A stretch of DNA of 64,000 nucleotides from Bordetella genomosp. 1 (GTDB lineage: Bacteria > Pseudomonadota > Gammaproteobacteria > Burkholderiales > Burkholderiaceae_B): assembly GCF_002261335.1 (NCBI RefSeq), contig NZ_NEVL01000001.1, positions 620,001 through 684,000 of the forward strand, written 5' to 3'. The translations under genes and the position numbers were made by a program. Below the pieces are notes generated by a model. That model saw only the letters and a list, made by a program, of their open reading frames with translations, searched no databases and was not told the DNA's origin. How positions within the stretch are numbered: position 1 is the stretch's first letter; every line of letters starts with the position of its first letter. Positions 33,805 through 37,462 of this stretch are shown one piece after another.

Positions 33805-34407
33805 ATGACCGAACACACTCGCTCCGAATCCGATGCCGACGACGCAGCCGCGTTGGCGGCCGATTTCTCCAATCAGTTCCTGTTGGCCATGCCCGGCATG
33901 GTCGAGGGCGCGCTGGCCGGCACCGTGATCTTCGTCTGCGAGCACACGCCGCGCGGCACGCTCGGGCTGGTCATCAATCGCCCCACCGACCTCACGCTGG
34001 GCTCGCTGTTCGAACGCATCGACCTCACGCTGGAGATCGGTCCCGTGTCCGACGATCTCGTCTTCTTCGGCGGTCCGGTCCAGACCGACCGGGGCTTCGT
34101 GCTGCACGCGCCGGCGGGCGACTACACCTCGAGCATCCGCCTGGGCGAGATCGCGCTCACCACCTCGCGCGACGTGCTGCAGGCGGTGGCCGACGGCAAC
34201 GGCCCGCAGCGCATGCTGGTCACGCTCGGCTACGCCGGCTGGGGCGCGGGCCAGCTCGAAAGCGAGATGGCACAGAACGCCTGGCTGAGCGTCGATGCCG
34301 ACGCCAGCATCATCTTCGACACGCCCGTCGACGAACGCTATCCCGCGGCGCTCAAGCTGCTGGGCATCGATCCGGTGATGCTTGCCGGTGACGCCGGGCA
34401 TGCTTGA
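33805..34407 (+). CDS. UPF0301/YqgE family protein
   Basis: 200 residues. NQFLLAMPGM, FVCEHTPRGTLGLVINRP, FFGGPVQTDRGFVLH and LVTLGYAGWGAGQLE are the family's conserved blocks. Function is not established; it is nearly always next to ruvX/yqgF, as here (8-base overlap). Confidence 0.95.
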   Translation: MTEHTRSESDADDAAALAADFSNQFLLAMPGMVEGALAGTVIFVCEHTPRGTLGLVINRPTDLTLGSLFERIDLTLEIGPVSDDLVFFGGPVQTDRGFVLHAPAGDYTSSIRLGEIALTTSRDVLQAVADGNGPQRMLVTLGYAGWGAGQLESEMAQNAWLSVDADASIIFDTPVDERYPAALKLLGIDPVMLAGDAGHA

Positions 34408-34801
34408 AGAAACCCTGCTCGCGTTCGATTTCGGCGAAAAGAAGATCGGCATCGCGATCGGCAACACGCTGACGCGGCACGCGCGCCCGTTGGAGATCAT
34501 CTTCGACGAGCGCCGCGACGTGCGCTTCGGCCGCATCGAGGCCCTGCTCAAGGAATGGCAGCCGCAGCGCGTGGTCGTGGGCCTGTCGCTCAACACCGAC
34601 GGCTCCGACCAGCCCGCCACGCTGCGCTGTCGGCGCTTCGCCAACCAGCTGCATGGCCGCTTCGGCGTCTGCGTCGAGCTGGTCGACGAGCGCGGCTCCA
34701 GCATGGAGGCGCAGCGCCTGCTGGGCACCCACGCGCCCGACGACGCGATGGCCGCGGCCGTGATCCTGCAACGCTACTTCGACGCCTTGCCGCAGGTCTG
34801 A
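34400..34801 (+). CDS. ruvX: Putative Holliday junction resolvase / pre-16S rRNA nuclease
   Basis: 133 residues, RNase H-like YqgF fold. LLAFDFGEKKIGIAIG carries the first catalytic Asp; VVVGLSLNTDGSDQPAT and LVDERGSSMEA follow, with DDAMAAAVILQRY at the end. The family matures the 16S rRNA 5' end. ATG 34400 sits within the yqgE end; an upstream TTG (34382) is less likely. Its stop shares a base with the next ATG. Confidence 0.94.
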   Translation: MLEETLLAFDFGEKKIGIAIGNTLTRHARPLEIIFDERRDVRFGRIEALLKEWQPQRVVVGLSLNTDGSDQPATLRCRRFANQLHGRFGVCVELVDERGSSMEAQRLLGTHAPDDAMAAAVILQRYFDALPQV

Positions 34802-35634
34802 TGTTCAACCCCCAGCTCGACCGCGGGGGCGCGCTGGCGCACCTGCTCACCACCGAAGGATTGCCGCGCCGCCTGCTCGAGCCGCTGCTCGCGCGCGCCG
34901 CACGGCTTCTCGCCCAGCCGGCCGCTGCCGGCCCCGCCGCGCCGGCGCCTGGCGCGCTGGCGCTCCTGGCCGACCCGCCCGCGCCGCTGCTGCACGACGC
35001 CTGCGCGCGCGCGGCGGCGCAGCGGGGCATGGCGCTGGCCGATCCGGGCGCGCCCGCCTTGCCGCGCGGCCGCACCCTGCCGGACTGGCTCGGCGGCCTG
35101 CCGGCGCGCGGCATCGGCACGCTGGTGCTGCGCGACCGTGCCAGCGGCGCGGCGCATCTGGCCGCGCGGCTCGCGCCACCGGGCCTGCGCATCGTCAATG
35201 GCGGTGACGGCCCGCATGCCGATCCGGTCGCCGCGCTGGCCGCGCTGCTGTCGATCCAGGCCGCGCACGGCGGCTTCACCGAACTCACCGTCGCCTTCGT
35301 GGGCGACCTGAACCACGCGCCTGCGGCCCGCTCGCTGGTGCACGCGCTCACGACGCTGGGCGCGCCGCAGCTGCGCGCGGTGGCGCCCGCATCCCTGCTG
35401 CCCGAGGGCGTGGCCGCGCTGGGCCTGCATGCCTGGCCCGACGCCGACAGCGGCGTGGCCGACGCCGACGTGATCGTGCCGCTGCCCTGCGTGGGCGCGG
35501 CCTCCGGCTGGGCGCTCACGCCTGAGCGACTGGCGCGGGCCCGGCCCGGCGCGCGGGTGCTGCCGGCGCCCGATGCCGCCGCCTGCGCCGCCGTGCTGTC
35601 GGCGCTGCTCGCGTCCTGGCAGGAGGGCGCCTGA
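34801..35634 (+). CDS. Aspartate carbamoyltransferase-like protein without active site (PyrB pseudoenzyme)
   Basis: 277 residues against about 310-320 for PyrB. Homology is clear at both ends of the fold: FNPQLDRGGALAHLLTTEGLPR, then LRIVNGGDGPHADPVAAL, LTVAFVGDLNHAPAARSLVHALTTLGAPQLRAVAPASLLPEGV and GLTPERLA-like ALTPERLARARPGA. Every catalytic element is gone: the carbamoyl-phosphate motif STRTR is ADPPAPLLHD (res. 58-66), the SSxxKGES loop is PALPRGRT, HPTQ is ADPV, LRLQxER is PLPCVGAA, and HPGPMNRGVE is LPAPDAAACAA. The frame is intact and coupled to both neighbours by one-base overlaps. A working ATCase must be elsewhere if the cell makes its own pyrimidines. Confidence 0.85.
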   Translation: MFNPQLDRGGALAHLLTTEGLPRRLLEPLLARAARLLAQPAAAGPAAPAPGALALLADPPAPLLHDACARAAAQRGMALADPGAPALPRGRTLPDWLGGLPARGIGTLVLRDRASGAAHLAARLAPPGLRIVNGGDGPHADPVAALAALLSIQAAHGGFTELTVAFVGDLNHAPAARSLVHALTTLGAPQLRAVAPASLLPEGVAALGLHAWPDADSGVADADVIVPLPCVGAASGWALTPERLARARPGARVLPAPDAAACAAVLSALLASWQEGA

Positions 35635-36725
35635 TGAGCGCCGCGTCCTTCCTGGTCGTCAATGCGCGCCTGATCGATCCCGGCAGCGGTCTCGACCGCC
35701 CCGGCGCGCTGTGGGTCCGCGATGGCGTGATCGCGGCGCTGGGCGAGGTGCCTGCCGTGGCCGCTGCGGCGCCGGCGCGCGTCATCGATGCGCGCGGCCG
35801 CGCCCTGTTGCCCGGCCTGGTCGACCTCGGGTTCGGCCTGCCCGCCGATGCCGCCGATGCGCGGGCCCACCTGGCCGCCGCGGCGCGCGGCGGCGTGACG
35901 GCCGTGGTGTCGCCCGACCCGATGCGGGTGGCGGCGCGCGGCCTGCCGCGCATCCATGCGCCGCCCGCCGGCGTGGCCTGGCTGCGGCCGCACGACCCGG
36001 CCTTCGGCGCGGGCGTGGTGGCGGCCGGCGCCTATGCCACCCGGCTGGGCCTGGCCGGCCTGCCCGAGGCCGCCGAGGTCGCCGCCGTGCAGCGCGTGAT
36101 CGCCGCCGTGCGCACCGGCCGCGAGCCACACCATCTGGCCAGGCTGTCCACGGCGGCTGCGCTGGCGCAGGTGCGGCAGGCGCGCGCCGAGGGGCTGCCG
36201 CTGAGCTGCGACATCGGCATCAACCATCTCCATCTCACCGAGCTCGACATCGGCTTCTACGACGCCCACTGCCACCTGCGGCCCCCGTTGCGCACGCAAC
36301 GGGATCGCATGGCCCTGGCGCAGGGCCTGGCCGACGGCACGATCGCCGCGCTGGTCTCCGACCATACCGTGCTCGGCCCCGACGACAAGCTCGCGCCCTT
36401 CGCCGAGACCGTGCCCGGCGCCGCGGGCGCGGGCCTGCTGTTCTCGCTGGCCTATAAATGGGCGCGCGACAGCGGCCTGCCGCTGTCCCGGGCCCTGGCC
36501 TGCGTCACCAGCGGCCCGGCCGCGCTGGCCGGGCTGGCGGGCGGCCGGCTCGCCGTGGGCGCGCCGGCCGACCTGTGCCTGGCCGACCTCGACGACGACT
36601 GGCTGGCGCCGCCGGCCGCGCCGGGCGCAGGCATTGCCGCGACACCGTTCGCGGGTATGATGCAGCCCGGTCGCGTGTGTGCCACCTGGGTGGGTGGGCA
36701 TCCGGCCTGGGAGACCTCGTTTTGA
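35634..36725 (+). CDS. Dihydroorotase-like protein, non-catalytic and internally shortened
   Basis: 363 residues against ~425 for the non-catalytic dihydroorotase (pDHO, PyrX/PyrC') that normally supports ATCase in this group. The amidohydrolase fold shows in LVVNARLIDPGSGL, ARGRALLPGLVDLGFGLP, INHLHLTELDIGFYDAHCHLRPPLRTQRDR, and ALVSDHTVLGPDDKLAPFAE. The metal-binding HxH after PGLVDL is absent, and about 60 residues are missing after SPDPMRV (near residue 100) where pDHO has a barrel segment. Coupled to the ATCase-like gene by TGATG and to plsC by TTGA. Perhaps a structural partner of the preceding pseudoenzyme. Confidence 0.85.
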   Translation: MSAASFLVVNARLIDPGSGLDRPGALWVRDGVIAALGEVPAVAAAAPARVIDARGRALLPGLVDLGFGLPADAADARAHLAAAARGGVTAVVSPDPMRVAARGLPRIHAPPAGVAWLRPHDPAFGAGVVAAGAYATRLGLAGLPEAAEVAAVQRVIAAVRTGREPHHLARLSTAAALAQVRQARAEGLPLSCDIGINHLHLTELDIGFYDAHCHLRPPLRTQRDRMALAQGLADGTIAALVSDHTVLGPDDKLAPFAETVPGAAGAGLLFSLAYKWARDSGLPLSRALACVTSGPAALAGLAGGRLAVGAPADLCLADLDDDWLAPPAAPGAGIAATPFAGMMQPGRVCATWVGGHPAWETSF

Positions 36726-37462
36726 AACTGCTGCGTTTCATTGCCAGGGTGGCGCTGGTGTTGCCCTGGATCCTCTTCGGCCTGCTGTGCGTGAGCCTGG
36801 TGTACCGGGTGCTCGACGGCAACCGACGTGCCGCGCTCAATCGCTTCTGGTCGCGCGTGCTGATGCGCATGTGCGGCGTGCGGATGCACATCAGCGGCGA
36901 GCCGCGCCTGCAGGGCGCCGTGCTCTGGGTGGCCAACCACGTCTCCTGGATCGACATCTTCGTGGTCAACGCGGTGCGCGCCACCTCGTTCGTGGCCAAG
37001 GCGGAGATCCGCGCCTGGCCGGTGATCGGCTGGCTGGCGGCCGGGGCCGGCACGCTCTTCATCGAGCGCACCCAGCGCCACGCCGTGCATGCCATGGGCG
37101 AATCGATCCAGGCCTGTTTCGCGCGCGGTGAGGCGGTCGGCCTGTTTCCCGAAGGCACCACCACCGAGGGCCTGGACCTGCGGCCGTTCCACGCCAGCCT
37201 GTTCGAGCCGGCGCGCGTGGCCGACGTGGCCGTGCAGCCCGTGGTGCTGCGCTTCAAGCACCACGGCGAGCGCAGCGGTTTCGCGGCCTTCGTGGGCGAA
37301 GAAACCCTGGTCGCCAATCTCTGGCGCGTGCTCGGCGCCACCGGCATCTCGGTCGAGGTGGTGTTCCTGCCGGCGCTCGACACCCATCACGCCGACGGCA
37401 AGCCGTTCACCCGCCTCGAGGTGTCGCGCGCCGCGCGCGCCGCCATTCTCGAACGCCTCTGA
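36722..37462 (+). CDS. 1-acyl-sn-glycerol-3-phosphate acyltransferase (PlsC family)
   Basis: 246 residues; adds the second acyl chain in phosphatidic acid synthesis at the inner membrane. An N-terminal hydrophobic helix (residues ~5-28) is followed by the catalytic NHVSWIDIF (HX4D) and the FPEGTTTEG block. The start is a TTG overlapping the dihydroorotase-like stop by 4 bases; no ATG lies close enough to include the membrane helix. Ends just before a strong terminator. Confidence 0.92.
   Translation: MKLLRFIARVALVLPWILFGLLCVSLVYRVLDGNRRAALNRFWSRVLMRMCGVRMHISGEPRLQGAVLWVANHVSWIDIFVVNAVRATSFVAKAEIRAWPVIGWLAAGAGTLFIERTQRHAVHAMGESIQACFARGEAVGLFPEGTTTEGLDLRPFHASLFEPARVADVAVQPVVLRFKHHGERSGFAAFVGEETLVANLWRVLGATGISVEVVFLPALDTHHADGKPFTRLEVSRAARAAILERL

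Follow-up and report, generated by a model that had tools for sequence, protein, structure and literature searches.

In the class A2 complex of Pseudomonas aeruginosa, aspartate transcarbamylase (ATCase) is paired with an inactive dihydroorotase (pDHO) that is nevertheless required for ATCase activity, according to excerpts of PMC7053772. Homologous chains form the dihydroorotase-ATCase (DHO-ATC) dodecamer of Aquifex aeolicus, which assembles 6+6 from two active chains (excerpts of PMC3880350 and PMC4581275). Essential motifs are missing from many transcarbamylase-like sequences of bacteria (excerpts of PMC4581275), and one pseudo-ATCase was later named ureidoglycine transcarbamylase, described for purine breakdown in passages of PMC4016543 and PMC4581275. 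Here we describe a 64,000-nucleotide stretch of Bordetella genomosp. 1 (contig NZ_NEVL01000001.1, positions 620,001 to 684,000; the window), in which an ATCase-like gene (pyrB) is directly followed by a dihydroorotase-like gene (pyrC'). The two products belong to the same two protein families as the P. aeruginosa complex, with an inactive dihydroorotase chain in both cases; unlike in that complex, the ATCase chain also lacks catalytic residues and the genome encodes another ATCase. In contrast to Aquifex, neither chain has an active site, and the likeness to ureidoglycine transcarbamylase, an ATCase-like sequence with another function, may be one of description. A pDHO that is a pseudoenzyme and paired with ATCase is already known; the death of the ATCase is the new part, and the open-licence literature searched gave no example of an ATCase-pDHO pair that is doubly dead, recurrent and under selection. 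We propose that the pair is probably a catalytically dead descendant of a class A ATCase-pDHO, kept as a non-catalytic two-protein complex with a role beyond catalysis. Compared genomes, loci and genera are labelled G, L and g with a number (g4 is Achromobacter), and "family" refers to the taxonomic family of the host.

The window ATCase-like protein (P0001) is an ATCase homologue that scores 87 bits against NCBIfam NF002032, for which the curated cut-off is 263 bits; two other dead copies reached 105 and 138 bits, and two intact copies 406 and 407. As the preliminary description of this DNA had claimed, its motifs are lost: STRTR, SxxKGE, HPTQ, HSRVARS, LRLQxER and HPGPxNRG are all missing by pattern check and alignment. 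The possibility, raised beforehand, that the motifs were shifted instead of lost was ruled out by alignment with intact copies. Retention was scored at 151 positions that hardly vary among 36 intact PyrBs, across three sets of dead copies (38 Achromobacter, 7 Bordetella and 8 others); G048, G053, G106 and G222 were excluded from the intact set and G079 and G093 from the Achromobacter set. The active site was represented by 14 positions, in what we take to be the E. coli numbering, and 11 of these are retained in fewer than 20% of the Achromobacter and of the Bordetella dead copies, leaving no complete ATCase active site. Mean retention at the 14 positions was 0.21 (Achromobacter), 0.08 (Bordetella) and 0.10 (others), as opposed to 0.55, 0.46 and 0.51 at the other invariant positions, the main exception being the equivalent of R105 (0.97, 0.86 and 0.62). 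None of the three motifs that define transcarbamylases in excerpts of PMC4581275 is present in the window chain. For FxxxSxRT, the equivalents of S52, T53, R54 and T55 are retained in 0% of the Bordetella and 3-13% of the Achromobacter dead copies; HPxQ is replaced by HADP in the window, with the equivalents of H134 and Q137 retained in 0% of all three dead sets; and the HxLP-type motif (HPGP in the ATCases of the family) is missing. Similar regions were lost and retained across the three sets, positions 56-110 and 276-317 being eroded in every one and positions 1-36 and 126-215 best retained. Thus the proposal that fold blocks were kept at both ends held for the N-terminal ~36 residues; the C-terminal end is largely gone (15% of invariant residues at 276-317 retained in Bordetella), and it is the central third that is retained instead. 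The dead PyrBs of Achromobacter are near full length (298-356 residues in 39 of 40, the last one running into a contig end). At L049 (G023), both dead pyrB and pDHO carry short-period amino-acid repeats (GAAITGASITG, GQSTYGQSTY).

The second chain is a dihydroorotase homologue with NCBIfam NF005791 as its best family (312 bits, below the 442-bit cut-off); the full-length relative in G009, the closest one and from the same genus as the window genome, is also under that cut-off with 385 bits. The absence of HxH and of about 60 residues, both noted at the outset, was borne out, the window pDHO having 363 residues and the G009 protein 423. The HxH pattern was found in none of the pDHOs from 7 Bordetella, 38 Achromobacter and 7 other dead loci, nor in any of the 35 that accompany an intact ATCase. 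Loss of HxH is evidently ancestral, old and known, and predates the death of the ATCase; because the ancestral pDHO had lost its active site beforehand, the novelty is confined to the loss in the ATCase. In the retention set for pDHO, which leaves out G007 (in-frame stop) and G262 along with the genomes excluded for PyrB, 87% of invariant residues are retained in Achromobacter, 71% in Bordetella and 78% in the others. The part after position 180 is best retained, and positions 91-150, where the window deletion falls, are strongly eroded in Bordetella. Six positions conserved beside intact ATCase are retained in <30% of each dead set (E64, E68, L73, T94, L103 and M106, G022 numbering); they are confined to residues 64-106 (clustering p=8e-5, calculated post hoc) and may matter only while the ATCase works. 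The pDHO beside the sole intact Bordetella pyrB (L039, G007) has an in-frame TGA close before its C-terminus.

The layout of the class A2 ATCase-pDHO operon, pyrB and then directly a dihydroorotase-like gene, is seen at this locus, and the pair evidently descends from that known operon. Of 23 loci read from other families of the order, 20 have an ATCase with STRTR and HPTQ, then pDHO, beside ruvX (the exceptions are G048, G053 and G054). The spacing between ruvX and pyrB is at least 366 bases in 31 of 40 intact copies, and the gene in the gap of G022 is PyrR. PyrR was present in all six intact genomes tested (G022, G260, G220, G129, G110 and G042) and gave no match in five dead genomes (G000, G009, G017, G023 and G262) or in the intact G007, the pair of which lacks pyrR in common with the dead pairs. 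Within the family, a dead pyrB occupies the locus in 56 genomes (8 Bordetella, one of them frame-broken, 40 Achromobacter and 8 of two other genera), and this recurrence argues against one decaying copy. The 15 Bordetella genomes comprise one intact pair (G007), seven dead pairs with open frames (the window included), one broken pair (G014) and six without a pair between ruvX and plsC. All 40 Achromobacter lack the STRTR, KGE, HPTQ, LRxQxER and HPGP patterns, with HSR(V/L)ARS retained in 17; these are 40 of the 43 in the family search (G069, G071 and G087 were not covered), G079 being a fragment at a contig end and G093 coming from a 57% complete assembly. Both loci of genus g10 are dead, as are six of seven in g67, the other being intact; the g67 loci were picked partly for odd profile scores and therefore give no frequency. 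A RuvX+PlsC tree was built for 93 genomes, of which 53 had a dead pair, 1 a broken pair, 18 an intact one and 21 none; parsimony on this tree, with loss made irreversible, yielded five ATCase deaths and eight direct deletions of the pair. Recent transfer of the intact G007 pyrB was considered: it has a long branch among the family copies in a 38-copy tree, with a nearest distance of 0.35 and a placement beside G036 that carries no support value, and there was no sign of a recent gain, which does not settle the matter.

A pyrB with STRTR and a metal-binding pyrC, which the preliminary description had proposed to look for, were both found elsewhere in the genome. Three other genes with transcarbamylase domains are present, encoding ArgF, a PRK11891-type ATCase and a protein resembling ornithine transcarbamylase (OTC). 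The PRK11891 / NF008853 ATCase shares the transcarbamylase family and the genomes of the dead pair; unlike it, this enzyme has 447 residues with an N-terminal extension, lies at a different locus and carries every motif checked (848 bits). A dimer-type PyrC with HxH scores above the TIGR00856 cut-off. Pyrimidine synthesis should thus not need the pair, and the PRK11891-type ATCase is the probable replacement enzyme. It was found with best E values <=1e-220 in 55 of the 56 genomes with dead pyrB (the exception, G093, is the 57% complete one) but in no more than 2 of the 17 family genomes that have all six pyrB motifs (G007 and G222), the other 15 (one 66% complete) giving weak cross-matches. 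Among the 22 family genomes that lack the pair at the locus, this ATCase is present at <=1e-162 in 21, the exception being G012 (77% complete); the genomes in these counts are related and not independent. L155 (G222) combines an intact pyrB and a PRK11891 ATCase with no pDHO match within the 4.5 kb read, possibly a different order of loss. G048 belongs to a different family of the order; at its locus L089, the frame adjoining ruvX looks like a PRK11891-type ATCase (HPLPR, 439-residue open frame) and no pDHO match is seen. Here the old site may be occupied by the replacement enzyme. The pyrB frame of L141 (G106) stops after 225 residues with the first four motifs present, and the best NF008853 match in that genome is a cross-match (6.7e-32); the short pyrB may reflect an assembly error or an auxotroph. 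The OTC-like protein (342 residues; L003, 1051-2076, on another contig of the same genome) lacks SxRT and HPxQ and, among 41 genomes searched, had a strong match only in its own genome and in G009 (70% identity). The adjoining frame looks like what we presume to be TauD.

Selection on the pair was estimated as dN/dS (omega) with home-made codon-model code (F3x4), and for the fits to sets and the frame controls the branch lengths were obtained by scaling those of a single nucleotide tree; all these estimates are approximate. The sets, of our own choosing, were 26 of the 40 Achromobacter loci, 7 Bordetella, 3 of the 6 dead g67 loci and 10 intact loci (2 of 12 were dropped for want of a plsC match), with G014 excluded. 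Consistent with purifying selection, which the preliminary description had suggested testing across relatives, omega for dead PyrB was 0.163 (Achromobacter), 0.162 (Bordetella) and 0.238 (g67), compared with 0.042 for intact PyrB; pDHO gave 0.105, 0.144 and 0.165 beside dead PyrB and 0.121 beside intact PyrB, and RuvX and PlsC ranged from 0.034 to 0.178 across the four sets. Free-branch fits in Bordetella gave 0.13-0.14 for PyrB and 0.12-0.13 for pDHO, and omega=1 was rejected in all set and free-branch fits (twice the log-likelihood difference, 2dlnL, at least 143). The constraint on dead PyrB is specific to the frame: omega was 0.14 and 0.15 in frame, and 1.06 and 5.10 (Achromobacter) or 1.20 and 3.38 (Bordetella) in the shifted frames. 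The Achromobacter PyrB alignment (26 species) has 203 and 64 stops in the shifted frames and 0 in the true one, the 0 being in part a consequence of the choice of open frames. On the window branch itself, omega was 0.069 for PyrB (omega=1 rejected, p=2e-7) and 0.133 for pDHO (p=7e-9). Both chains are relaxed relative to their neighbours, the ATCase far more than the pDHO, yet lie well below neutral. The two genes do not resemble pseudogenes, as both frames are open, the pDHO with a ~60-residue in-frame deletion, and dN/dS is not near 1.

The four genes of the locus are coded on the + strand in the order ruvX, ATCase-like, dihydroorotase-like, plsC-like, with stop and start codons of neighbours overlapping (Table 1); the plsC name is the label given in the preliminary description, made without a family search. 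That description had both frames open, as found here, and coupled to ruvX and plsC by one base: TGATG gives a one-base overlap at the ruvX/pyrB junction, and also at pyrB/pyrC, and the pDHO stop shares four bases, not one, with the likely TTG start of plsC (TTGA, 36722-36725). All 56 dead copies have the pyrB-pyrC overlap (53 were recognised by pattern and 3, with GTGA, by eye), versus 18 of 40 intact ones, the latter scored as intact by two motifs and including G048 (PRK11891-like gene) and G106 (truncated).

Table 1. Coordinates of genes and sub-regions at the ruvX-plsC locus, in positions of the window.
Feature	Position	Strand	Remarks
ruvX (Holliday junction resolvase-like), upstream gene	34382..34801	+	PF03652, E=7e-37; start from open reading frame finder
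Dead ATCase-like gene (pyrB relic), 277 residues	34801..35634	+	six motif patterns all missing; branch omega 0.07
PyrB retained block 1, N-terminal ~36 residues	34801..34908	+	71-86% of intact-invariant residues retained in the three dead sets
PyrB eroded block, expected site of STRTR and 80s loop	34909..35112 (approximate)	+	15-23% of invariant residues retained, reference 56-110
PyrB retained block 2, central (VLR..SGAAH, NGGDG, GDL..ARS.HALTTLG)	35113..35490 (approximate)	+	50-75% of invariant residues retained, reference 111-235, by sub-block and set; omega windows 3 and 4, 0.07-0.15
Dihydroorotase-like gene (pDHO, pyrC'), 363 residues	35634..36725	+	without HxH; ~60 residues deleted; branch omega 0.13
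pDHO, stretch around the ~60-residue deletion	35919..35975 (approximate)	+	residues present in G009; profile offset 115 to 177
pDHO, conserved C-terminal part (HLHLTELDIGFYD, PPLR, SDH)	35976..36722	+	Bordetella: 84-100% of invariant residues retained at reference 181-390, 69% at 391-420
plsC-like gene, downstream	36722..37462	+	open frame, junction; likely TTG start

Open frames are in themselves little proof at this G+C content, because antisense frames reach 703 residues over the same stretch (34590-36701 on the - strand, spanning the pair), and it is selection at the codon level, not openness of the frames, that is the evidence for real genes. Chance frames of this length are what simple decay would draw on, that is, a redundant ATCase operon drifting in a G+C-rich genome; the second ATCase, the 22 family genomes without the pair, the broken pair of G014 and the relaxation of dead PyrB (far less constrained than intact PyrB) and of pDHO (relative to its neighbours) all fit it. 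Decay is nonetheless unlikely given omega values of 0.13-0.24 that are frame-specific and significantly below 1, also on the window branch, and given the stop-free true frame of Achromobacter PyrB. Premature stops in relatives, named in the preliminary description as a mark of simple decay, were seen in one of the eight Bordetella with a dead pair, G014; its pieces still show omega of 0.12-0.20, so this break is probably recent, and the other seven are open. The overlapping junctions with ruvX, pyrC and plsC would suit a pair that serves as operon filler, kept open solely for translation to reach plsC without polarity. Such filler would be selected against stops and frameshifts and not against amino-acid changes, in conflict with an omega far below 1, and in 20 of the 22 pair-less family genomes ruvX and a PlsC match lie within the same short stretch, making this explanation very unlikely. 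The codon models thus reject both decay and polarity-only retention as sufficient.

Purifying selection and the near full length of the Achromobacter PyrBs would also be expected if the ATCase-like chain had gained another active site. By eye, though, no new polar residue at the old active site is common to the dead lineages, HPTQ has become ADP(L/V) in some copies and RPL or QPL in others, and the three transcarbamylase-defining motifs (excerpts of PMC4581275) are gone; we regard a new enzyme as quite unlikely. An error of sequencing, assembly or frame calling has a practically negligible chance, since the assemblies of 7 other Bordetella, one of them frame-broken, and of 40 Achromobacter show the same state. 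It is possible, if doubtful, that the roles in the pair have been inverted, with the dead ATCase as the prop and the pDHO carrying the selected function, probably the binding of a pyrimidine-pathway ligand or partner protein; this is weakened by the pDHO also being relaxed, relative to neighbouring genes, beside dead ATCase.

A non-catalytic complex of two dead chains is the reading that we favour. The ATCase and PyrC elsewhere, with their motifs intact, plausibly freed the old pair, and the pair then stayed under purifying selection without simple drift, which supports a non-catalytic role; the preliminary description had offered these as alternatives, and both are supported, in succession. 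In a lineage with two ATCases, pyrR would have been lost first and the catalytic residues of the old enzyme afterwards. Both chains, jointly present in the dead loci, would still associate, their synthesis being linked by the overlap of stop and start codons, and selection would act on the complex with its non-catalytic task. Our guess is that this task might be that of a scaffold or ligand sensor with its working surface mainly on the pDHO and the dead ATCase as structural partner, as this fits the better retention of pDHO.

Several points weigh against such a complex. The protein, the complex and its function are all predictions from sequence. By our mapping, trimer contacts that excerpts of PMC7053772 describe for E. 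coli ATCase probably fall within the lost PyrB regions, and the former quaternary structure may therefore be unable to assemble. Bordetella pDHO has itself lost conserved residues (71% retained overall, 17% at 91-120 and 36% at 121-150), the pair of G014 is frame-broken, and the locus is without the pair in 6 of the 15 Bordetella and in 16 further family genomes, which indicates that the pair is dispensable. The count of five deaths imposes irreversibility on a short two-gene tree, and because the dead Bordetella clade that excludes G007 has 65% support at this key node, four deaths or another history are possible. On the window branch, the RuvX control had an omega of 0.261, higher than elsewhere (p=0.004) and with omega=1 not rejected (p=0.11), and single-branch estimates are therefore noisy; G+C content at third codon positions (GC3) is ~0.85, and some pairs approach saturation at synonymous sites. 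Relative to RuvX or PlsC of the same genomes, omega was 0.24-0.44 for intact and 2.3-5.7 for dead PyrB, and for pDHO 0.68-1.27 beside intact and 1.7-3.9 beside dead ATCase. Scaled in this way, the constraint on pDHO is weaker by a factor of 1.8-3.4 next to a dead ATCase than next to an intact one; the absolute omegas of pDHO are similar and compare poorly, because sequences of the intact set differ more from one another and contain less G+C than those of the dead sets.

A term search for pyrB and pyrC gave no match in the main text, as available, of an essential-gene paper on B. pertussis (PMC8116675). The dead dihydroorotase of Pseudomonas is explained by its support of ATCase (excerpts of PMC7053772). 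The doubly dead state is common in Achromobacter (40 of 40 examined), and lineages with a dead ATCase in which both chains are constrained amount to a natural experiment, since selection there cannot act on the ATCase activity of that chain. If the roles are indeed inverted, pDHO would always have had a second, non-catalytic job, exposed about five times once another ATCase had made the old one redundant.

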